Positions 186 to 11,538 of a stretch of DNA of 13,353 nt are shown in pieces (position 1 is the stretch's first letter; each line of letters begins with the position of its first letter). This DNA comes from Desulfovibrionaceae bacterium (GTDB lineage Bacteria; Desulfobacterota; Desulfovibrionia; Desulfovibrionales; Desulfovibrionaceae): positions 1 to 13,353 of the forward strand of contig WRHT01000017.1 of assembly GCA_009783115.1 (NCBI GenBank), given 5' to 3'. The position numbers and the translations under genes are program-made. The notes below the pieces were generated by a model, which searched no databases, had not been told where the DNA came from, and was given only the letters and a program-made list of their open reading frames with translations.

Positions 186-262
186 CGGGATGTAGCTCAG
201 TTTGGTGGAGCGCTGCGTTCGGGACGCAGAGGCCGGAGGTTCAAGTCCTCTCATCCCGACCA
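186..262 (+). tRNA. tRNA-Pro (anticodon CGG)
   Basis: A full cloverleaf can be folded by hand. The acceptor stem is CGGGATG (186-192) with CATCCCG (252-258). The D stem is GCTC/GAGC. The anticodon stem CTGCG/CGCAG (213-217/225-229) carries loop TTCGGGA with anticodon CGG at 220-222. The T stem 235-239/247-251 carries loop TTCAAGT. Discriminator A259 is followed by an encoded CCA (260-262). The C1-G72 pair is characteristic of bacterial proline tRNAs. It reads CCG codons. Its 3' flank borders the accessory region, as is common for tRNA-associated insertions. Confidence 0.96.
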
Positions 263-2365: not shown

Positions 2366-2935
2366 ACTACACCCCCACCGGCACGGCTGGCCTACGGCTA
2401 ATATCGACCCATCGGTCAAACGTGAAAGCCTTCGTAGCCAATTTCAACAGTTCAAGATGCCTTACCTTGACCTCCCGTATAACATTTTGCCATACTAAAT
2501 AGTTGTTTAGGTACTTGGTGGCAACGCCCTTGAAGCGGCGCAGGAAGTCTTTCAGCCGCGAATGATAACCGTTGACATGCTGGACATGGTATATGCCTAA
2601 CCTCTTTATACCATTCGGAACCCTGATGTGCCTAAATGGACTCCTTGAAGCATATTTCACATAGGCTGAATCGCTATCAGTACATACTGTGGCATGCCTT
2701 GATAGCCGATTGCGAAACACGCTCTTCAGAACTTTTGCAGTTGCACGTCCTTGAGCAGATACTTTGCTGTAAACCTGTCCGTTGCGGCTGACAGCACAAC
2801 TGACGCAAACCTTCTCTCTGCTTGTACCTCGCTTGGTAGCCTTTTCACCGCGCTTATGTGATTCCCTGCCTATGGGTTTGCTACCTTTGAAAGACAACGG
2901 CAAGAAGGTGTCATCGGCTTCGACGATATCCTGCC
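2171..2935 (-). mobile_element. IS1595-like insertion sequence remnant
   Basis: The remnant consists of the truncated transposase and the small ORF behind it. The 5' junction is placed near 2930-2935, where transposase homology stops. No terminal inverted repeats or target duplication were found by eye at either end, consistent with a decayed element. The left limit is uncertain. Confidence 0.5.
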
Positions 2936-2985: not shown

Positions 2986-3096
2986 ATGAGTCAGACATCC
3001 GCAATTCCGCACAATATCCGGGACGCGTTCAGCTCAAGTAGAAAATTTCAGGAAAAGTCGGCGCATTTTTTCTTGACAGGCATACCCTTATGTTAA
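2986..3096 (+). CDS. 36-aa ORF upstream of the aromatic operon, possible gene remnant
   Basis: ATG 2986 has a perfect AAGGAG (2975-2980) five bases upstream. The peptide begins MSQTSAIPHNIRDAF and ends ...AHFFLTGIPLC before TAA at 3094-3096. It is not recognised. Its 3' end overlaps the -35 and spacer of the operon promoter (3073-3102). It could be the surviving 5' end of a native gene cut short by rearrangement near the insertion relic, or a short expressed ORF. The good ribosome binding site is the main support. Confidence 0.35.
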   Translation: MSQTSAIPHNIRDAFSSSRKFQEKSAHFFLTGIPLC

Positions 3097-3102
3097 TAAA
3101 AT
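3073..3102 (+). promoter_or_regulatory. Predicted promoter of the aromatic amino acid operon
   Basis: A perfect TTGACA (3073-3078) and TAAAAT (3097-3102) are separated by 18 bases. The start site would be near 3109, just before the Shine-Dalgarno of the leader peptide, leaving a leader of about 275 bases before the first structural gene. No other comparable rightward promoter is seen before 3386. Confidence 0.65.
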
Positions 3103-3125
3103 TTTTTAAAACTTGCAGGAAAAAT

Positions 3126-3230
3126 ATGCTTTTTTACAGCCGCCCGATTAATACCGTGAATTTTTTCGAATTCAGTTCTTATAGCTATTATAGCCGGGGG
3201 CGCGGCGTGGGGGATATTTTTCTCGTGTAA
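3126..3230 (+). CDS. Phe/Tyr-rich leader peptide of the aromatic operon (34 aa)
   Basis: The ORF starts at ATG 3126 with AGGA at 3117-3120, five bases upstream, and stops at TAA 3228-3230. It begins MLFYSRPINTV and contains NFFEFSSYSYYS: six Phe or Tyr codons within ten consecutive positions (3162-3191), nine in the whole peptide (Phe 3, 13, 14, 16, 32; Tyr 4, 19, 21, 22). It lies between the operon promoter and an intrinsic terminator, in front of genes that make Phe and Tyr. In known attenuators (pheA, trp, his leaders) such codon runs make ribosomes stall when the cognate charged tRNA is scarce, which prevents the downstream terminator from forming. Nothing else in this peptide suggests another role. 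The mechanism is inferred; the ORF, its ribosome binding site and composition are seen directly. Confidence 0.85.
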   Translation: MLFYSRPINTVNFFEFSSYSYYSRGRGVGDIFLV

Positions 3231-3280
3231 GCAAACCACACAAGAAATGAACCAGGGCCGCAGACATCCGTCCGCGGCCC
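3139..3280 (+). promoter_or_regulatory. Competing RNA pairings of the leader (putative attenuator)
   Basis: Four complementary segments can be seen. GCCGCCC (3139-3145) can pair with the GC-rich block at 3198-3206. Part of that block, GCGGC (3202-3206), can pair with GCCGC (3257-3261) inside the 5' arm of the terminator. GGGGCGCGG (3197-3205) can also pair, with one mismatch, with the terminator 3' arm CCGCGGCCC (3272-3280). The terminator pairs 3255-3265 with 3270-3280. A small hairpin TGAATT/AATTCA (3157-3174) overlaps the Phe codons and could be a pause site; another lies at 3221-3245. These mutually exclusive pairings fit an attenuator, but no folding energies were computed. Confidence 0.5.
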
Positions 3281-3285
3281 TTTTT
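3255..3285 (+). terminator. Intrinsic terminator in the operon leader (attenuator)
   Basis: GGGCCGC (3255-3261) pairs perfectly with GCGGCCC (3274-3280). The stem continues with GAC/GTC past one A-C mismatch to a four-base ATCC loop, and five T residues follow (3281-3285). It lies between the operon promoter and the first structural gene, 24 bases after the leader peptide stop. Unless relieved it would end transcription at about 175 bases. Confidence 0.85.
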
Positions 3286-3385
3286 GTGCCGCGGCCTGAC
3301 TGCATCGCCAGGGGGCCTGGTTTATAAAACATCAAGATCATCAGGAAGCAGCCCCTGCCTCCGCAAACTCAGGAGAAACCGTGTC

Positions 3386-4186
3386 ATGCATACTGGTAAA
3401 GCCATACGAATGGAACGCATTGTAAACCGAAACACCAGGAAGACCATTATCGTGCCCATGGACCACGGGGTGTCCGTGGGACCGCTTGATGGGCTTGCGA
3501 ATATGCCCCACGCCATCAATGAAGTGGCCGAAGGGGGGGTAAACGCCGTGCTGGAGCACCGAGGGCTTATTCGTTGCGGACATAGAAAGGGTGGAAAAGA
3601 TGTGGGACTTATCCTGCACCTCTCCTCCAGCACGGAGCTGTCATCCAAGCCCAACCGCAAAACATTGACGGCCTCTGTGGAAGACGCTATCAAAGTCGGG
3701 GCGGACGGCGTTTCCATCCATATCAACCTTGGAGATCCGGATGAGGCCGAAATGCTCAGGGATTTCGGCAAGGTCGCCCGCGATGCCGAGGAATGGGGCA
3801 TGCCCCTTCTGGCCATGGTCTATGGACGCGGCCCCAAAATCCCCAACAGCCTGGACCCGCGGATCGTCGCCCACTGCGCCAGAGTGGGAGTGGAACTGGG
3901 CGCGGACATGGTGAAAGTTCCTTATACCGGCGATATGGACAGTTTCAAGTTTGTCACGGAAAACTGCTGCGTGCCGGTGGTGATTGCCGGCGGCCCGAAA
4001 ACAGAAACCACCAGGGAATTTTTGCAGATGGTCAAGGACGCGGATCTGGCCGGTTCCACCGGCCTGTCAGTAGGACGTAATATTTTTCAACATCCCTCCC
4101 CCCGCCTGATGTCTATGGCCCTTGCCGGCATTGTGCACGAAAATTGGAGCGTGGAAGAAGCCATGAACAAAATGGGGGAGAAATAA
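3386..4186 (+). CDS. 2-amino-3,7-dideoxy-D-threo-hept-6-ulosonate (ADTH) synthase, AroA'
   Basis: A class I aldolase-like TIM barrel that condenses L-aspartate 4-semialdehyde with a 6-deoxy-5-ketofructose 1-phosphate donor to give ADTH. This is the first step of the DAHP-independent route to dehydroquinate known from Methanocaldococcus (MJ0400). The 266-residue protein shows [18 protein letters not shown] and VKVPYTGD. Asp26, Tyr146 and Lys177 (Schiff base) all sit at a constant offset of 7 from the MJ0400 catalytic Asp33, Tyr153 and Lys184. The C-terminal GGPKTET and VGRNIFQH phosphate-binding blocks are intact. The start is ATG 3386 with AGGAG at 3371-3375; the frame runs further upstream through the terminator but without support. 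It is the first gene of the operon, 3 bases ahead of the DHQ synthase II gene. Fructose-bisphosphate aldolase is a common misannotation for this family. Confidence 0.93.
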
Positions 4187-4189
4187 GCT

Positions 4190-5179
4190 ATGCCCTCGGC
4201 TTTTTTCTTGGCGGATCCTTATATCCTGGAGGACGTCACCGCAGCCCTGGAGGCCGGGGCGGACAATTTCATTGTGCCGCCGGAACATTTGTCCCAGGCC
4301 GGAAACCTGGCCCGCTGCCGTTTTATCGCTTCTTCATCCTTTACTTTCATTTCTCTGGCCTCCAAGGAAGACGAAAACAGGGCCGAGGCTCTTCTACGTA
4401 GCGGTGTTTCAGTAATCTTACGGCATGGCTGGGAGGTTATTCCGGTGGAAAATCTCCTGGCGCATTCGCAGGGATCGCCCCAGGGCGGAGAATTGCTTCT
4501 GGAGGTTATTTCGCCTGAAGAAACGCAACTGGCCTTCGGCATTCTGGAAAAAGGCGTGCACGGCGTCGCCGTGCCCTCCTCGGCCTTGGGTAAACTTAAA
4601 GAAATTTTAAGCGCCCTGCGTAGCGAACAAACCCTCATTCCCCTCAGCGAGGCGCGGATCCTTGAAATTTCTCCAACAGGCATGGGACACCGGGTTTGTG
4701 TGGATACCCTTTCCAACTTGAACAAAGGACAGGGCCTCCTGGTGGGCAATTCCGCAGCCTTTACTTTTTTGGTGAACGCCGAAACCGAGCGGAATGAATA
4801 TGTGTCCCCGCGTCCATTTCGCGTAAATGCGGGGGCCGTGCACGCCTATACCTTTCTGCCCGGTGATTGCACGGCCTATCTGGAAGAATTGCGCGCCGGA
4901 TCCAAGGTGCTGATCGTGGATTTCCAGGGCCGCGCGGAGACAGCCGTGGCCGGACGAATCAAAGTGGAAAAGCGGCCCATGCTGCTTATCCGGGCGGAGG
5001 CGGAAGGACGGGAAGGCGTGGTCTTTTTACAGAATGCCGAAACCATCCGCCTGGTGACCCCGGAAGGAGAGGCCAGAAGCGTGGTGGCGCTTTCCCCGGG
5101 AGACCGGGTGCTTTGCCGTCTGGATCAGGCCGGCCGGCATTTTGGCGTACGCATAACTGAAAATATTGATGAAAAATGA
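4190..5179 (+). CDS. 3-dehydroquinate synthase II, AroB'
   Basis: Catalyses NAD-dependent oxidative deamination and cyclisation of ADTH to 3-dehydroquinate, replacing AroB. It is 329 aa. The C-terminal half carries the family signature blocks GMGHRVCVDTLSN, GLLVGNS, SPRPFRVNAGAVHAY, KRPMLLI, LQNAETIRLV and RHFGVRI. The N-terminal half (LADPYILEDVTAALEAGAD, FIVPPEHL) is more divergent, as usual. Start ATG 4190 follows GGGGGAG (4174-4180) and lies 3 bases after the preceding stop, so the two enzymes of the alternative pathway are presumably co-translated. The stop overlaps an ATG of the next gene (ATGA). Neither DAHP synthase nor classical AroB is present in the window. Confidence 0.93.
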   Translation: MPSAFFLADPYILEDVTAALEAGADNFIVPPEHLSQAGNLARCRFIASSSFTFISLASKEDENRAEALLRSGVSVILRHGWEVIPVENLLAHSQGSPQGGELLLEVISPEETQLAFGILEKGVHGVAVPSSALGKLKEILSALRSEQTLIPLSEARILEISPTGMGHRVCVDTLSNLNKGQGLLVGNSAAFTFLVNAETERNEYVSPRPFRVNAGAVHAYTFLPGDCTAYLEELRAGSKVLIVDFQGRAETAVAGRIKVEKRPMLLIRAEAEGREGVVFLQNAETIRLVTPEGEARSVVALSPGDRVLCRLDQAGRHFGVRITENIDEK

Positions 5180-5187
5180 GGCAGGCC

Positions 5188-6300
5188 ATGGCTACTACCC
5201 AGGCTGAGGCAAATGAAGAAAAACTTCTCGAACCGATCCGTGCGGAAATTGATCGACTGGATGCGGAACTCCTCGTATTGCTCAACCAGCGCGCCGCTTG
5301 CAGCCTTAAAGCCGGCACCATCAAAAAAAAATTCCAGGCCCCGGTATTCAGGCCTGGACGTGAACAGAGTCTTCTGCGCAAACTGAACACGGCCAACCAG
5401 GGGCCGCTTGACGAGCGGCAACTGCGGGCCATTTACCGGGAAATTTTCTCCGTCTCCAGGGATTTGCAGCGCCAGCCCAACATTGCCTACCTGGGGCCGG
5501 AGGGAACTTTTTCCCATGTCGCCTGCCTGGAATATTTCGGTGAATCAAGTTGCCTCCTCCCCAAGGAATCCTTCGGGGATATTTTTAAGGCGGTAGAAAT
5601 GCGCCTCTGTGATTTGGGGGTTATCCCCCTGGAAAATTCGCTGCACGGCGCCGTGGGGCAATGCCTGGATCTCTTTGCCACCCATGAAGTCTATGTGCAG
5701 GCCGAATGGATCAGCCGCGCACGCCTAAGTCTCATCTCCCGTGAAAGCTCGCTGGCTTCCATTAAAGTGGTTTATTCCCCCGCCCAGCCTTTTGGGCAAT
5801 GCACGCGCTGGCTGCGCGAAAATCTACCCGGAGCGGATCAGGTATTGGTAGGTAGCAACGCCGCCGCCATGCGGCGGGTAACAGACGAAACCAACAGCGC
5901 GGCCATAGGACATGCCGGCCTGGCTGAATGCCTGGAACTGCGCGTACTGGCCGCAAACCTGGAGGATTCCCCCGATAGCTGGACGCGCTTTTTCGCCATT
6001 AGCCCGGAGCCTGGCCCCTTGGCTGAAGCCGACAAATCTTCCATTGTTTTCACCCTGGGCAACCGCCCCGGAGCCTTGTCGGCGGTGCTGGCCGTTTTCG
6101 CCGGATCCGGCATAAACATAAGCAAGCTGGAATCCAGACCTTTACGCGGCGAACGCTGGCATTACATCTTTTTTACGGACCTGGATTGCAATATCCTCGC
6201 CCCTGAGCATCAAGCCGCCCTGGAACAGGTTCGGGGATACTGCGACAGCCTGAAGGTCATCGGCGCTTATACAGAGGGCAAACATGTCCGCGCCGTATGA
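5188..6300 (+). CDS. pheA: Bifunctional chorismate mutase / prephenate dehydratase (P-protein)
   Basis: Converts chorismate to prephenate and then to phenylpyruvate. Domains in order (370 aa from this start): AroQ-type chorismate mutase, residues about 12-94 (IRAEIDRLDAELLVLLNQRA); prephenate dehydratase, about 98-271 (IAYLGPEGTFSH, IPLENSLHGAV, catalytic Thr-Arg-Phe in SWTRFFAI at 266-268); and a C-terminal ACT domain, about 282-361, with GNRPGALSAVL and the Phe-binding ESRP (315-318). End-product inhibition by phenylalanine is therefore expected. One odd point: the usually conserved SHPQ block reads SPAQPFGQC, with His replaced. ATG 5188 is preferred because GAGG (5178-5181) lies six bases upstream; ATG 5176, overlapping the previous stop, would add four residues. 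The 3' end overlaps tyrA by 17 bases. Confidence 0.93.
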   Translation: MATTQAEANEEKLLEPIRAEIDRLDAELLVLLNQRAACSLKAGTIKKKFQAPVFRPGREQSLLRKLNTANQGPLDERQLRAIYREIFSVSRDLQRQPNIAYLGPEGTFSHVACLEYFGESSCLLPKESFGDIFKAVEMRLCDLGVIPLENSLHGAVGQCLDLFATHEVYVQAEWISRARLSLISRESSLASIKVVYSPAQPFGQCTRWLRENLPGADQVLVGSNAAAMRRVTDETNSAAIGHAGLAECLELRVLAANLEDSPDSWTRFFAISPEPGPLAEADKSSIVFTLGNRPGALSAVLAVFAGSGINISKLESRPLRGERWHYIFFTDLDCNILAPEHQAALEQVRGYCDSLKVIGAYTEGKHVRAV

Positions 6301-7087
6301 ATTCCGGCATTTGGCGGTAGTCGGCAACCGCGGCAAAATGGGGGCCATGCTCGCTTCCCGCCTCTCCCTGTCCGGCTACCGGGTAACCGGGGTATCCAGG
6401 ACGGCCCGCCCGGACGGCTCCAAGGGGCTGGACCCGCAATCCCTGGAAGAGGCCCTGGACGGAGCTTCCCTGGTTCTGCTCTGCGTTCCGGCGGCGGCTC
6501 TGCCGGAAACCCTGGGGGCGGTCGTCCCCTTGCTCACTCAAGAGCAAATCCTTATGGACATCGCCTCGGTCAAGAGCGAACCCATGCGGCTCATGGAAGA
6601 AAGTTTTTCCGGCGCGGTCATCGGCAGCCACCCGCTCTTCGGACCTTGTTCGGAGCCATCGGACTTGCGCGTGGCCCTGGTACGCGGCCGAAGGGCAGAA
6701 CAAACGCAATGCCGCGCGGCGGAGGAGCTTTTTGGCGGCATGGGCTGCTCCACCTTCTGGTCCAGCGCGGAAGAACACGATTTGGGGACCGGACTGACCC
6801 AATCCCTAAACTTCGCGCTCAGCGCGGCCTTTTTAACCACCCTGGCCCGCCTGGGAGACCGGCGTTTTCTCACCCCCTCCTGTAGCCGGCACCTGGAGGC
6901 CGCCAAAAGAAGCCTGACGGAAAACGCGGACATGTTCTGCGAATTTACGGCCATGAATCCATATTTCTCCGACATTCTTGAACATTATAAAAAAATTCTG
7001 CATGAGGCCGCGTCTTTTTCCCAGGCAGGCGAGCCGGACGGGCTGAACATACTGGCCCGCGAGGCCGCGACCTGGTATGCCGAGTGA
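6284..7087 (+). CDS. tyrA: Prephenate dehydrogenase
   Basis: Oxidatively decarboxylates prephenate to 4-hydroxyphenylpyruvate for tyrosine synthesis with NAD(P). The 267-residue protein has an N-terminal Rossmann fold with VVGNRGKMGAM (residues 12-22), the DIASVKS block (92-98), and the catalytic-site His116 in GSHPLFGP. A second conserved region, EEHDLGTGLTQSLNF (164-177), opens the helical dimerisation domain. The Gly-Asn-Arg-Gly-Lys-Met-Gly nucleotide loop resembles the dehydrogenase half of E. coli T-protein more than the Gly-x-Gly-x-x-Gly type. There is no chorismate mutase or ACT domain, so it should not be directly feedback-inhibited through ACT. The start is supported by GAGGG (6274-6278), five bases away, inside the end of pheA. 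It precedes aroA with overlap or an 8-base gap, depending on the aroA start. Confidence 0.9.
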   Translation: MSAPYEFRHLAVVGNRGKMGAMLASRLSLSGYRVTGVSRTARPDGSKGLDPQSLEEALDGASLVLLCVPAAALPETLGAVVPLLTQEQILMDIASVKSEPMRLMEESFSGAVIGSHPLFGPCSEPSDLRVALVRGRRAEQTQCRAAEELFGGMGCSTFWSSAEEHDLGTGLTQSLNFALSAAFLTTLARLGDRRFLTPSCSRHLEAAKRSLTENADMFCEFTAMNPYFSDILEHYKKILHEAASFSQAGEPDGLNILAREAATWYAE

Positions 7088-8382
7088 CGAAATACATGCA
7101 ATACATCGTACGTCCCTCCAGCATCAGCGGCAGTTTGACCGTACCCGCATCCAAATCGCATAGCCTGCGGGCCATCCTTCTGGCCTCCCTGGCCAACGGC
7201 ATAAGCCGCATCCGTGCCCCGCTGCCCTCCCCGGATACCTTGGCCATGATCCGGGCCTGTAGCGCCCTGGGAACGGAAATCCTTGAAAAAGGACCGGATT
7301 TGGAGGTGCACGGACTTGGCGGCCGGCCCAAGGTTCCGGATCAGGTGATCGATGTTGGCAATTCCGGCCAGGTCCTGCGTTTTGTGGCGGCTCTGGCCGC
7401 GCTTTTGCCACAGTACACGATTTTTACCGGCGATGACTCCATACGATCCATCCGGCCGGCACAACCCCTGCTGGATGCCCTTGCCGGTTTGGGCGCCTTT
7501 GCCGTGTCCAGCAAGGGGGACGGGCATGCTCCGATCATCGTGCGCGGTCCCGCAAAGGCCGGAAGCACACGCTTGGACGGGGCGGATTCACAGCCGGTGT
7601 CCGCCATGCTTTTCCTGGCCTCTTTTCTGGAAGGCGAGACCACCATCCTGGTTGACAACCCCGGAGAACAACCCTGGATCGATCTCACCCTGTACTGGCT
7701 GGAACGCCTTGGGATATCCTGCCGGCATGATAATTACCGCGAATATGCGGTGCGCGGTCCGGCCGGCTATCCCGGCTTTGATTATACCGTCCCTGGGGAT
7801 TGGAGTTCCGCCGCCTTTCCCTTGGCTGCGGCCCTGATCCAGAATCGGCCCCTGGAACTGCGAAACCTGGATTTCCGTGATCCCCAGGGCGATAAGGCCA
7901 TCCTGGATATCCTGCGTGATATGGGCGCGAATCTTATCGCGCACGAAGAGGAAAAACGCCTGGAAGCGCGTCCTCATAACGGCTTGCACGGCCTGGAAGC
8001 CGATCTGAACCATATTGTTGACGCCGTACCCGTACTGGCAACCCTAGCCTGTTTCGCCCAAAGTCCAAGCCTGTTCCGGGGGGTGGGGATCGCCAGGCAT
8101 AAAGAATGTGACCGTCTGCGGGCCATTGCCTGCGAATTGGGCAAGATGGGCGGCTTGGTGGAGGAATTGCCCGATGGCCTGCGGATCACCCCTGCCAGGC
8201 TGCATGGCGCTATCACAGAGAGCTGGCGGGATCATCGCATCGCCATGTCCATAGCGGTGGCGGCTTTGAGCTGCGGTGAAACCGTAATTCGGGACAGCGC
8301 CTGCGTGGTCAAGAGTTTTCCGGATTTTGCCCGGGCCATGTCCGCTTTAGGCGCACGCATTGAAGAGAGCGGTTTTTCATGA
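7084..8382 (+). CDS. aroA: 3-phosphoshikimate 1-carboxyvinyltransferase (EPSP synthase)
   Basis: Transfers the enolpyruvyl group of PEP to shikimate 3-phosphate. Length 432 aa (E. coli 427). Visible motifs: VPASKSHSLRA with Lys24, Ser25 and Arg29; Arg124 in SIRPAQPLLDAL; GADSQPVSAML (substrate binding); catalytic Asp313 in NHIVDAVPV; Lys340 and Glu341 in RHKECDRLRA; and DHRIAMSIAVAAL. The loop that is normally GN(A/S)GT..R reads GNSGQVLRF (92-100), an unusual version in the PEP/glyphosate-binding segment. The GTG start at 7084 overlaps the tyrA stop as GTGA, in keeping with the four-base overlaps elsewhere in this operon. ATG 7096 (428 aa) is an equally possible start; neither has a strong Shine-Dalgarno. 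The stop overlaps the kinase ATG by four bases. Confidence 0.93.
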   Translation: MTKYMQYIVRPSSISGSLTVPASKSHSLRAILLASLANGISRIRAPLPSPDTLAMIRACSALGTEILEKGPDLEVHGLGGRPKVPDQVIDVGNSGQVLRFVAALAALLPQYTIFTGDDSIRSIRPAQPLLDALAGLGAFAVSSKGDGHAPIIVRGPAKAGSTRLDGADSQPVSAMLFLASFLEGETTILVDNPGEQPWIDLTLYWLERLGISCRHDNYREYAVRGPAGYPGFDYTVPGDWSSAAFPLAAALIQNRPLELRNLDFRDPQGDKAILDILRDMGANLIAHEEEKRLEARPHNGLHGLEADLNHIVDAVPVLATLACFAQSPSLFRGVGIARHKECDRLRAIACELGKMGGLVEELPDGLRITPARLHGAITESWRDHRIAMSIAVAALSCGETVIRDSACVVKSFPDFARAMSALGARIEESGFS

Positions 8383-8915
8383 ATATAATTTTGCTGGGCT
8401 TCAAGGCCAGCGGTAAAAGCACCCTGGGCCGCGCCTTGGCCCGGATTTTAGGCCGGAATTTTCTGGATACGGATATTCTGACCGAAGACTTGCACGCAAC
8501 GGAACACCCTGGAAAACGCCTTAATTGCCGAAACATCAGCCGCGTCCACGGAATGAAAGCTCTGCGCGATCTTGAGACCAGGGCCATTCAGGGTTTGCGT
8601 TCCGCCGCCTTCAAAGGCGACGAGATCATCGCCACCGGCGGCGGCATTATCCTGCGGGAAGAAAATATGAAAATTTTGAATTCTATGGGACCGCGCGTGT
8701 TTTTGGACACTTCCCTGCCCCTGCTGGAAGAACGGCTGCGCGGACATGATTCTCCGCTCTTTGCCGAAAAAAATGTGACGGAACTGCACCGGGAACGCTA
8801 CCCTCTTTATATGCGTTTTTCAGATTTGCGTTTGCCCATTGCCCGGAACCTGCCGCCTGAAGAGTTATCCGGGCAGCTAATTGAACTGTTACAGGAGGCG
8901 GGTTATGTCCAGTAA
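8379..8915 (+). CDS. aroK: Shikimate kinase
   Basis: Phosphorylates shikimate at the 3-hydroxyl with ATP. The 178-residue P-loop protein has Walker A GFKASGKS (7-14), Asp32 in the FLDTD block, Arg63 in LRDLETR (shikimate binding), and ATGGGIIL (85-92) with the glycine triplet. The lid region normally reads RPLL; here it is DSPLFAEK, so the arginine is replaced by serine. The conserved C-terminal Arg...Tyr element is present as HRERYPLY. The ATG overlaps the aroA stop as ATGA. Position between aroA and aroC strongly supports the assignment. The altered lid may mean shifted kinetics, but the remaining substrate-binding residues look intact. It could equally be named aroL. Confidence 0.88.
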   Translation: MNIILLGFKASGKSTLGRALARILGRNFLDTDILTEDLHATEHPGKRLNCRNISRVHGMKALRDLETRAIQGLRSAAFKGDEIIATGGGIILREENMKILNSMGPRVFLDTSLPLLEERLRGHDSPLFAEKNVTELHRERYPLYMRFSDLRLPIARNLPPEELSGQLIELLQEAGYVQ

Positions 8916-10041
8916 CTCTTTTGGCCTCTTTTTCCGTTATACCAGTTGGGGAGAGTCCCACGGACAGGCCGTTGGGGTGATAGTGGACGGCTGCCCAGCC
9001 GGAATTCCCCTGGACGAGGAAATGCTGAACGAGGCCTTGGCCCGGCGCGCGCCAGGGCAAAATTTCTTTACCTCTCCCCGGCGGGAAGGAGATCAAGGGC
9101 GGCTCCTTTCCGGCGTATTTGAAGGACGCACTACCGGATCCCCCATCAGCATCCTGATCGCCAACCACGATGCCCGATCCTCGGCCTATGAGGCCATTGC
9201 CTCCCTGCTGCGTCCAGGTCACGCCAATTTTACCTATCTCGCCAAGTACGGCTGTTTTGACTACCGGGGAGGCGGGCGGGCCTCGGCCAGGGAAACCGTG
9301 GCCAGGGTGGCCGCCGGAGTGGTGGCCCGGCAATTTGCAGTAAAAACCGGGATACGGGTTCTGGCTTACCTGGGAGAATTGGGCACCAGCCAGGCCGCTC
9401 CGGCGGAAGATCTGGAAACCGCGGCGGCCTATGCCCTCCAAAGTCCTGTACATGCCCCGGATGCGTCTTCCGAAACCGCGTTCATGGAAGAATTACGCCT
9501 GGTCATGGAGGAAAAGGATTCCACGGGCGGGGTGGCCCATTTTCACATACTGAACGCGCCCGTTGGCCTGGGTGACCCGGTATATGAAAAATTTCACGCC
9601 CGGCTGGCCTATGCCCTAATGAGCATTCCGGCCAGCAAGGGTTTCGAGATCGGCGCTGGCTTCGCAGCCGCCGCCGGGCGCGGCTCCCGTCTGAATGATT
9701 CTTTTGGACTACGCGAAGGCGTAGTTGTGCCGGCTGGCAACAACGCCGGCGGCGTTCTTGGCGGCATCACCACCGGCGAAACGATTTACGGACGGGTGGC
9801 CTTCAAACCGGCTTCCAGTATCGGCCTGCCGCAAAATACTTTAGATTTGCAGGGCAAACCGGCCACCTTCCAATTGCCCGATGGATCCCGCCATGATCCC
9901 TGTGTGGCCGTCAGGGCTGTGCCGGTGGTGGAGGCCATGTGCTGGCTGGTTCTGGCCGATGCCTTGCTCATGCAAAGAGCTGTTGCCTCGCAAAACCCCC
10001 GTCCGGCCGCCGCTTTGCCTTTTGCAGGCGATTGGTTATAA
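8905..10041 (+). CDS. aroC: Chorismate synthase
   Basis: Makes chorismate from EPSP using reduced FMN as catalyst, the last common step. The 378-residue protein contains WGESHGQAVGVIVDGCPAG (15-33), PRREGDQGRLLSG (58-70), RPGHANFTYLAKYG, DYRGGGRASARET (119-131), NNAGGVLGGITTGE and RHDPCVAVRAVPVVEAM near the C-terminus. All family signatures are in order, and the length is typical. ATG 8905 has a perfect AGGAGG (8893-8898) six bases away and overlaps the kinase gene by 11 bases. The first residues, MSSNSFGLFFRYTSWGESHG, match the usual start of the family. The C-terminal extension after MQRAV is Ala/Pro-rich and short. Confidence 0.95.
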   Translation: MSSNSFGLFFRYTSWGESHGQAVGVIVDGCPAGIPLDEEMLNEALARRAPGQNFFTSPRREGDQGRLLSGVFEGRTTGSPISILIANHDARSSAYEAIASLLRPGHANFTYLAKYGCFDYRGGGRASARETVARVAAGVVARQFAVKTGIRVLAYLGELGTSQAAPAEDLETAAAYALQSPVHAPDASSETAFMEELRLVMEEKDSTGGVAHFHILNAPVGLGDPVYEKFHARLAYALMSIPASKGFEIGAGFAAAAGRGSRLNDSFGLREGVVVPAGNNAGGVLGGITTGETIYGRVAFKPASSIGLPQNTLDLQGKPATFQLPDGSRHDPCVAVRAVPVVEAMCWLVLADALLMQRAVASQNPRPAAALPFAGDWL

Positions 10042-10072: not shown

Positions 10073-10495
10073 ATGTCTTATACATGGGATTCGAATCTGG
10101 AAACAGGAAATACGGCTATTGACAACCAGCATAAGCAACTTTTCGCCGCGGTGAATGCTTTGTACGACGCGCATAGGGAAGGCAAAGGCCAGGCGGAGGT
10201 GGAAAAAACCATGGATTTTCTGCTGGCTTATACCATCAAGCACTTCGCGGACGAGGAAAAACTTCAGGAAAAATATCTGTATCCGGGATTTCTGACCCAT
10301 AGGCAGACCCACATGGATTTCAAAGCCACGGCCAGCCGGCTGGCGCGGGAAATGTCCGAAGTCGGGCCGTCGGATGAATTTATCGGCCGGGTTTATGCGC
10401 TTATCGGCGATTGGCTGGTCAACCATATCAAGGGTGATGACTTCGGAATGGCGGCCTTTGTGCAAAACAAGGAAAAAGAAGCCTCCGGCAAGTAA
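10073..10495 (+). CDS. Bacteriohemerythrin
   Basis: A single-domain hemerythrin of 140 aa, expected to bind O2 at a non-heme di-iron centre in the cytoplasm. All seven ligands are present at standard spacing: His20 (DNQHKQL), His57 and Glu61 (HFADEE), His76 and His80 (HRQTH), His118 and Asp123 (HIKGDDF). The conserved N-terminal Trp5 is also there. Strict anaerobes and microaerophiles use such proteins to store, scavenge or sense oxygen. It has AAGGAG at 10061-10066 and lies 31 bases after aroC with no visible terminator. It is probably read through from the aromatic operon, although an A-rich gap (10042-10057) could also carry a weak promoter. No membrane or sensor domain is fused. Confidence 0.93.
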   Translation: MSYTWDSNLETGNTAIDNQHKQLFAAVNALYDAHREGKGQAEVEKTMDFLLAYTIKHFADEEKLQEKYLYPGFLTHRQTHMDFKATASRLAREMSEVGPSDEFIGRVYALIGDWLVNHIKGDDFGMAAFVQNKEKEASGK

Positions 10496-10515
10496 GCGCA
10501 GTTCTATTTACAGGC

Positions 10516-11538
10516 ATGATGCCTTTGTCTGATACGGATCCGCCTCTACGGGCCTGCCGCCTTTGCGGGCGTTCCTGCCGGGCCTGCCGCCAGGATTCCG
10601 GCGTGGGATACTGTGGAGCGGGGTCCGATGTAGTCTTGTCTTCGGCCTTGATCCACCACGGTGAAGAACCGCCCATTTCCGGCCAGGGCTTATCCGGTTC
10701 CAGGCGCGGTTCGGGAACAATTTTTTTTGCCCGCTGCCCCCTGCACTGCGTATTTTGCCAAAACTGGCAAATTTCCCAAGCTGTTCCTCCGGCCGGAACA
10801 AAAAACCCGGCCGGCTCCTCCGTTTCTCACCTGGAAATCTCTCCTGAGGAACTATCCGGAATTATGCTGAATCTGGAGGCGCGTGGGGCGCTGAACATCA
10901 ACCTGGTTTCCCCCACGCCCTATGTACCACAGATCGCCCTGGCCTTGCGCCATGCCAAGATTGCCGGACTGCGCCTGCCCATCGTGTATAACAGCGGAGG
11001 GTATGATTCGCTGGAGGCCCTACGGCTGCTGGACGGACTCATTGACATATATCTGCCGGACGCCAAGCTGGCCCCGGAAAGCGAAACCTCGTCCACGAAA
11101 GATGACCCACTAACAGCGCGCCTTTTGGGCGCTTCCAATTATGTGCGGGTCAACCGTCCGGCCCTTTTGGAAATGTTCCGGCAATGCGGGCATTTGCGTC
11201 TGGATGAACGGGGAGTGGCCTATAAGGGGCTGCTTATTCGCCACTTGGTGTTGCCGGGCAACCTGGCCCGCACCAGGCAGATGATCCCCTGGCTGGCCGA
11301 AAACTTTGGCCAGGATTTATGCCTCAGCCTTATGGCTCAGTACCAGCCCATGTACCTGGTACACAACCGCCCGAAGGACTTCAGGGATTTGCCGGATCTG
11401 AGCCGGCCCCTGCGGGAGAAAGAATACGATGAGGCCGTGGATTTGGCCCTGGAACACGGACTTGCCCGGACCTTTATCCAGGAATTGTCCTCAGCCGTGG
11501 AATACCTGCCGGATTTCACCCGCCGGAAAGTTTTCTAA
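10516..11538 (+). CDS. Radical SAM protein, PflX/pyruvate formate-lyase activating enzyme-like
   Basis: A 340-residue member of the PflX-type (COG1313) radical SAM proteins. The [4Fe-4S]-binding CxxxCxxC reads CPLHCVFC (Cys74, 78, 81), followed by QNWQIS. An N-terminal cysteine group (14, 17, 21, 24, 33; CRLCGRSCRAC) precedes it, as is usual in this subgroup, and may hold an extra metal site. Later blocks INLVSPTPYVPQI, LPIVYNSGGYDS and IDIYLPDAKL are typical for the subgroup. The family is often annotated as a PFL-activating enzyme, but its substrate is not established and no glycyl radical enzyme gene is adjacent. Two tandem ATG codons (10516, 10519) are possible starts; the Shine-Dalgarno is weak. 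It follows the hemerythrin gene by 20 bases. Confidence 0.88.
   Translation: MMPLSDTDPPLRACRLCGRSCRACRQDSGVGYCGAGSDVVLSSALIHHGEEPPISGQGLSGSRRGSGTIFFARCPLHCVFCQNWQISQAVPPAGTKNPAGSSVSHLEISPEELSGIMLNLEARGALNINLVSPTPYVPQIALALRHAKIAGLRLPIVYNSGGYDSLEALRLLDGLIDIYLPDAKLAPESETSSTKDDPLTARLLGASNYVRVNRPALLEMFRQCGHLRLDERGVAYKGLLIRHLVLPGNLARTRQMIPWLAENFGQDLCLSLMAQYQPMYLVHNRPKDFRDLPDLSRPLREKEYDEAVDLALEHGLARTFIQELSSAVEYLPDFTRRKVF

Follow-up and report, generated by a model that had tools for sequence, protein, structure and literature searches.

A putative Phe/Tyr-codon transcription attenuator before an archaeal-type aromatic operon of a Desulfovibrionaceae bacterium, and its relatives with other codon runs

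In enterobacteria the leaders of pheA and pheST carry Phe codons and the trp leader carries Trp codons, while the leader of ilvGMEDA unites Ile, Val and Leu codons in one peptide. The first step of the aromatic pathway is catalysed in E. coli by the DAHP synthase isozymes AroF, AroG and AroH, which respond to Tyr, Phe and Trp, respectively. We know of no homologous RNA family whose codon set has been re-specified from gene to gene. At the time of one account, Rfam covered attenuators for His, Leu, Thr and Trp, and Ile/Val and Phe types were known in addition, according to its accessible text (PMC3766115). The uORFC-13-1 motif is described, in the accessible part of its report, as a predicted Phe-coding leader before aroF in Acholeplasma, accompanied by a terminator (PMC8632094). 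By word search, the main text of the study of Rodionov (2004) on metal-reducing delta-proteobacteria mentions no leader peptide and contains neither aromatic nor tryptophan. In the titles and abstracts searched, a scope outside which most subscription journals fell, neither the switch family presented here nor an archaeal aromatic one is described.

The DNA analysed here, called the window throughout, is a stretch of 13,353 nucleotides from a Desulfovibrionaceae bacterium. Its aromatic operon lies on the plus strand and starts with ADTH synthase (2-amino-3,7-dideoxy-D-threo-hept-6-ulosonate synthase; 3386-4186; TIGR01949, 375 bits, cut-off 299), followed by a member of the 3-dehydroquinate synthase II family (4190-5179; 429 bits, under the curated cut-off of 508), a chorismate mutase/prephenate dehydratase (5176-6300; the mutase at 70.9, above its cut-off of 69.55, and the dehydratase at 210.9, just below 219), a prephenate dehydrogenase-like protein (TyrA; 6284-7087; below cut-offs), EPSP synthase AroA (7084-8382; TIGR01356, above cut-off), a shikimate-kinase-like protein in the place of AroK (8379-8915; below cut-offs, its best listed match being a homoserine kinase model, also sub-cut-off) and chorismate synthase AroC (8881-10041; TIGR00033, above cut-off), whose true start is probably later than the first TTG of the ORF. 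The seven genes that were identified between 3386 and 10041 include neither 3-dehydroquinate dehydratase (aroD) nor shikimate dehydrogenase (aroE); the complete pathway from ADTH to chorismate and on to Phe and Tyr, which a preliminary description had read here, was therefore too strong a statement. No trp genes were identified in this operon. Elsewhere, the window holds a tRNA gene (186-259, plus strand), an IS1595-family transposase match upstream of the promoter described below (2367-2903, minus strand), which covers only profile positions 75-210 of 215 and is a remnant, and, after aroC on the same strand, a bacteriohemerythrin together with a weak AmmeMemoRadiSam radical-SAM match (10073-11538). 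The window DNA gave no match in a plasmid collection.

Upstream of ADTH synthase, a sigma-70-type promoter TTGACA-18-TAAAAT with 11 of 12 consensus matches occupies 3073-3102 of the plus strand. It is the one sigma-70-like site listed between 2500 and 4500, where shuffles give 1.4, so that the score is weak evidence alone. Of 95 loci compared, 41 have a site with at least 9 of 12 matches, as do 94 of 475 shuffles, the 11 of the window being the top score, and an exact TTGACA is also found in the best promoter site of the relatives L113-L116. A ribosome-binding site AGGA (3117-3120) precedes a predicted leader ORF of 34 codons (3126-3230, plus strand), which belongs to a conserved class of ORFs and encodes MLFYSRPINTVNFFEFSSYSYYSRGRGVGDIFLV, with nine Phe/Tyr and no Trp. 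The aromatic residues fall at codons 3, 4, 13, 14, 16, 19, 21, 22 and 32, and the six within codons 13-22 (F F. F.. Y. Y Y; 3162-3191 in this reading frame) form the putative sensor. Downstream of the ORF there is a G+C-rich hairpin at 3254-3281 with a run of five T at 3281-3285. Its 5' arm AGGGCCGCAGAC (3254-3265, plus strand), which would also be the target of the antiterminator, and its 3' arm with the T run (3270-3285, plus strand) were both placed by arm search, alignment and folding, the latter also lying in a covariance-model match at 3177-3288. The segment 3230-3285 folds at -21.3 kcal/mol (z -4.66), a stability equalled by 0 of 200 shuffles, while the whole leader 3109-3300 has a z of -2.43 with 5 of 200 shuffles as good; a consensus terminator scan gave the hairpin on the minus strand only. 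Promoter, 34-codon ORF with its own AGGA and six of its nine Phe/Tyr codons in ten positions, and GC-rich hairpin with five T before the first aro gene are all present as the preliminary description had given them. Thus a short predicted ORF with a ribosome-binding site precedes the first gene, carries a codon run for amino acids of the operon and is separated from that gene by an intrinsic terminator, as is expected of an attenuator. Rfam covariance models, which include one for the T-box, returned a tRNA as the only match at E ≤ 1 in the window, hence neither a leader family nor a T-box riboswitch, and in nine relatives tRNAs only, at gathering scores, and no leader family.

We propose that this element is very probably a ribosome-mediated transcription attenuator. 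In the mechanism that we infer, from the start site and the translation of the leader to the stall on uncharged tRNA, an antiterminator that wins the kinetic race and a cell that responds to Phe and Tyr, transcription would start near 3109 and the leader ORF would be translated behind RNA polymerase. When Phe-tRNA and Tyr-tRNA are plentiful, the ribosome would reach the stop codon at 3228-3230 and cover the last leader codons, the hairpin 3254-3281 would form and transcription would end near 3285. When either of them is short, the ribosome would stall within codons 13-22, leaving 3202-3211 free to pair with the 5' arm of the terminator (core 3257-3261) before the 3' arm is made, and RNA polymerase would read on into the aro operon. 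The putative antiterminator strand (3202-3211, plus strand, core GCGGC at 3202-3206) thus lies within the leader ORF; it is placed by the minimum free energy fold of 3193-3265 and by covariation in relatives, and is weak in the window. The window would be one member of an order-wide family of switches, in which the codon run (Phe, Tyr, Trp or mixed) differs with the genes controlled.

In order to compare relatives, the genome set was reached via a locus titled Desulfoplanes, taken as Desulfovibrionales, an order in which 322 of 348 genomes contain ADTH-synthase relatives. One hundred regions around the listed matches, mostly the best-scoring, were fetched and gave 101 loci with the window, 100 of them with sufficient upstream DNA (L125 being too short upstream). 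An ORF with at least six Phe, Tyr or Trp in 12 codons lies upstream of ADTH synthase in 94 of these 100 loci, the window included, the other six falling under the threshold; the corresponding numbers are 7 of 100 for reverse strands and 37 of 1000 for shuffles. The count becomes 94 of 104 once the leaderless matches L097, L098, L099 and L101 are included, which together with a 46% paralogue (L082) stood outside the 100 fetched regions. Leaderless matches such as L101 may be due to an intervening ADTH-synthase-like gene, as in L382 (contig C10) of G205, a genome with a leaderless match, where some 900 nt separate the leader from the best ADTH-synthase match and the tandem ADTH-synthase-like gene stands between them. 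L207 (G024) and L188 (G026) are without a leader, and both genomes have leader-bearing loci elsewhere (L391 and L407). The leader peptides vary in sequence (VYFYGFYFYGFS, AYFSNFYFWYWYS, YYFWYFFSY etc.) and are constant in kind.

Five of the 100 loci, scoring fewer than five aromatics, were left out of the RNA analysis, which thus comprised 95 leaders. A terminator follows the leader in all 95 by direct arm search, which replaced an earlier fold-based search that had given hairpins for 70 of the 95, some evidently wrong. It lies 17-43 nt from the leader stop codon (56 in L179), and shuffled stretches gave one in 57 of 475 cases, none of which reached the weakest real one. The alignment of related leaders that had been proposed as a check on the preliminary description therefore finds both aromatic codons and terminator kept at this place. 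A covariance model built without the window (R1; its E-values are rough) matches the window at 3177-3288 with 47.3 bits (E 1.3e-12). Among 81 genomes of the order it has matches in 78, with an E of 1e-10 or lower in 76, and the three genomes that it misses (G050, G057 and G060) are also without an ADTH-synthase match. Since the terminator alone can score about 1e-5 against R1, as on the minus strand of the window, matches near that value are no evidence of a leader.

The analysis of the leader tails demonstrates that the last leader codons, GCC-NGC-GGN in most loci, are complementary to the 5' arm of the terminator, with a variable base that covaries between leader and arm (TGC with A, CGC with G, AGC with T and GGC with C). 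For 92 loci with a register, which was picked for best complementarity (three loci, the window included, have none), the tail-arm combinations in this column are C-G 42, T-A 28, T-G 14, A-T 5 and G-C 1 against C-A 1 and one gap, that is, 90 of 92 pair when T-G is counted; among distinct pairings, 60 of 61 are paired, a number that never rose above 53 in 10,000 shuffles. In a MAFFT alignment made without regard to pairing (A1; 34 rows from 87 distinct, the window and L179 left out), 91.2% of the antiterminator cells pair against 36-44% when the strands are slid, a value as high being reached by 0 of 500 shuffles; its three pairs with double changes do not exceed shuffles, of which 147 of 500 have as many. 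In the terminator, 98.4% of cells pair. Within that hairpin, the variable base of the arm is paired with its partner in 38% only; some covariation exists there too (9 of 500 shuffles reach it), and the main constraint on this base therefore seems to be the leader codon. Thus the competing stem, for which covariation had been asked of relatives, does covary, and an antiterminator that would sequester the 5' arm on stalling is present in them.

The folding of these leaders around a ribosome of assumed footprint was modelled in 94 loci, L179 being left out. With the ribosome placed at the first aromatic codon, the arm is predicted to pair with the leader in 93 of 94, and with the ribosome at the stop codon in 0 of 94, the terminator being formed in all 94; a stall at the last aromatic codon would free the antiterminator strand in 37 of 94 only. 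With the ribosome at the first aromatic codon, equilibrium nevertheless favours the complete terminator in 78 of 94 loci; the switch model therefore needs co-transcriptional kinetics, in which the order of synthesis matters.

Three competing pairings had been named for the window itself. The one between 3202-3206 and 3257-3261 (GCGGC:GCCGC) stands, being part of the minimum free energy fold of 3193-3265, before the 3' arm is made, and covarying in relatives; the entire segment folds no better than shuffles do (z -1.02, 31 of 200). For 3139-3145 with 3198-3206, a fold of 3109-3212 that contains such pairs does not surpass shuffles (z 0.85). The third, 3197-3205 with 3272-3280, is possible, the leader tail and the 3' arm pairing at -20.8 kcal/mol, but the preference for the 3' arm is peculiar to the window among 95 loci. 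This preference is one of the features expected if the family is real and the window copy has decayed, its antiterminator too weak and its terminator nearly constitutive. The complementarity of leader and arm in the window has the lowest score of 95 (88th of 95 by duplex energy), and the stall-state probability of 0.47 computed for it is the only value below 0.5 among the 94 modelled; the nearest relative by ADTH synthase (L113, 81%) has a strong antiterminator. Against decay, the core pairing is still in the fold, the terminator of the window is also weaker than most (88th of 95), and no damage is seen in promoter, ribosome-binding site, codon run or open reading frame. The window antiterminator is present as a predicted pairing and ranks among the weakest examined, and we consider decay an unlikely, though not a negligible, explanation.

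Nascent-peptide sensing, as exemplified by TnaC, would have the aromatic peptide stall the ribosome on free Phe or Tyr rather than at codons awaiting charged tRNA. The conservation of the peptides in kind would fit such a mechanism, but their sequence is not conserved, Phe, Tyr and Trp being interchanged and their order varying, and the tail is kept as RNA while the reading frame shifts in L134, L206 and L211, which makes this reading very improbable. It is scarcely credible that the ORF is fortuitous and the hairpin an ordinary terminator left by an upstream gene: the hairpin does match, on either strand, that part of the model which describes the terminator, and the minus strand upstream carries an IS1595-like transposase remnant, but leader, terminator and covarying alternative pairing are conserved across the order. 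The attenuation role first suggested for the window is therefore supported by a leader, a terminator and a covarying antiterminator conserved in relatives, even with its own antiterminator among the weakest; the parts, their conservation, both alternative pairings and the tendency of codons to go with genes can be read from the sequences themselves.

This last tendency was examined after dropping sixteen loci with too little downstream DNA. In 57 operons that bear trp genes, the 14-codon leader core contains Trp in 56 and two Trp in 40, L179 having trp genes and no Trp in the frame picked; in the 18 aro-only operons, to which the window belongs with neither trp genes nor leader Trp codons, Trp is absent in 8, single in 10 and double in none. 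The strict rule that operons without trp genes have no Trp codons was rejected, given the 10 of 18 aro-only operons with one Trp codon. Four solitary ADTH-synthase genes (L128, L153, L178 and L199) have Phe-only leaders. Along a tree of 79 loci the presence of trp changes six times, and in five independent pairs at least two Trp go with trp in 3-4 and the opposite way in none (p 0.125-0.25); the association of Trp codons with trp genes is consistent but unproven, the kinship-corrected test being not significant. The putative mixed Phe/Tyr sensor that had been put forward as a different wiring is indeed present in the window, but mixed sensing is common in the order and most relatives add Trp. 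TrpE was also sought in 30 genomes, picked mostly for having no trp genes seen in the aro operon, and matched in 21 of them and not in the other 9, giving 22 loci. Upstream of these, at least three Trp in 12 codons are found in 12 of 22, against 0 of 22 reverse strands and 3.2% of shuffles, whereas at least two Trp is a weak criterion (19 of 22 against 6 of 22 reverse strands and 30% of shuffles).

Further members were sought in 40 regions fetched under R1 matches in genomes of the order. Tyr runs (YYY(Y)GY) with the same terminator precede ADTH-synthase paralogues in L370 and L371 (Pfam DeoC) and in L375 and L369, where the gene was identified by eye (from its reading frame in L375, from a shifted one in L369); Phe runs precede such paralogues in L389 and, with one Tyr, in L372. 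The same switch stands before sodium:solute symporters (PF00474), with Phe in L373, L376 and L381 and with Phe and Tyr in L384, and this suggests that the Phe-leader symporters are aromatic amino acid carriers. Trp-rich runs precede TRAP transporter genes in L374, L383, L386, L397 and L399 (PF03480; the WWW run of L374 was read by eye from the sequence), as well as in L378 (DctQ) and, by eye only, L392, suggesting that these transporters (DctP/DctQ) take up Trp or a related compound. The gene of a PLP-dependent enzyme (L387) is preceded by two Trp codons and that of an AMP-binding enzyme (L400) by a Phe/Tyr leader, and mixed leaders stand before the main-operon ADTH synthase in L382, L388, L390, L391 and L408 (in L407 by like layout) and before a TrpE gene in L385; for the TrpE locus L379 no leader was picked. 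No clear leader-gene pair was seen in 13 of the 40 regions (L377, L380, L393-L396, L398 and L401-L406), some of which may hold leaders, since the ORFs picked have six aromatics in twelve codons in L396, five in L402 and three Trp in eight codons in L394.

Outside the order, 50 of 79 loci in a mixed set (Desulfobacterales, Aquificota, spirochaetes and more, some loci being duplicated) reach the leader threshold, and the Desulfobacterales among them have leader and terminator, often as two tandem terminators. Read by eye, L008, L010, L013, L018, L025, L037 and many of L271-L298 of the Desulfobacterales show a second architecture, in which a leader tail such as GGTCTGCCTG is complementary to the first of two tandem terminators. 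For Archaea, action of uORFs by attenuation is stated in general terms in the accessible part of one article (PMC10219788), and small ORFs are reported in 5'UTRs of Methanosarcina mazei, the accessible text mentioning no aromatic amino acids (PMC11456600). The archaeal loci compared here are L043, L045, L057, L060, L063, L071, L073-L080 and L240-L358, the Methanomicrobiales titles in L043-L080 including Methanolinea, Methanoregula and Methanospirillum. A uORF of Methanomicrobiales with an aromatic-rich C-terminus ends mostly 33-105 nt before ADTH synthase. At least six Phe, Tyr or Trp are found in the last 14 uORF codons in 77 of 108 archaeal loci, some genomes being counted twice, against 6 of 1080 block-shuffled sequences; the start codon is ambiguous. 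The uORF frame has no excess of synonymous change (18%, with 20% and 28% in the other two), while exchanges among Phe, Tyr and Trp are commoner in it (9%, with none or almost none in the others). The folds do not support sequestration of the ribosome-binding site, the mean unpaired probability being 0.44 against 0.39 for shuffled segments, and a stalled ribosome on the uORF is predicted to open that site by more than 0.2 in 21 of 66 loci and to close it in 13 of 66. A hairpin often lies between the uORF stop codon and the ribosome-binding site of the gene; seen by eye, it has a median score of 17.5 against 13.0 for shuffled sequences, with 10% of shuffles as good. We regard the archaeal aromatic uORF as a possible ribosome-read amino acid sensor, a lead and not a finding.

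Taken together, it is quite possible, though we would stop short of calling it probable, that exchanges of the codon run (Phe, Tyr, Trp, Phe plus Tyr, or all three) have many times given one homologous switch a new specificity, each aromatic gene set, be it the main aro/trp operon, a single ADTH-synthase isozyme, a symporter or a TRAP transporter, thereby heeding its own amino acid, and that the uORF of Methanomicrobiales is a ribosome-read sensor. Such a family would offer natural variants of one RNA switch that differ in their codon input, which makes the rule that leader codons set the signal testable by comparison and by codon swapping. Furthermore, it suggests how bacteria with the ADTH (archaeal-type) route may share first-step control among isozymes, and points to a possible sensor of this kind in Archaea.

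Like the pheA, pheST and trp leaders, the putative switch combines a peptide rich in the regulated amino acid with alternative hairpins and a terminator before biosynthetic or synthetase genes, but it occurs in another bacterial order, before genes of the ADTH type, would read several aromatics at once, has its antiterminator strand within the final codons of the leader ORF and gives no Rfam leader match. With ilvGMEDA it shares the reading by one leader of several amino acids made by one operon, the codons being aromatic here instead of branched-chain. As with AroF, AroG and AroH, first-step isozymes appear to be specialised to different end products; in contrast to them, the specialisation of the ADTH-synthase paralogues would lie in the leader RNA, as Phe or Tyr runs, irrespective of any allostery of the enzymes. 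The uORFC-13-1 motif differs from the window family in comprising, as far as its accessible description goes, 24 sequences with at least one Phe codon before a DAHP-synthase gene, with no Tyr or Trp codons mentioned, and resembles it in placing a leader and a terminator before the first gene of the aromatic pathway (PMC8632094).
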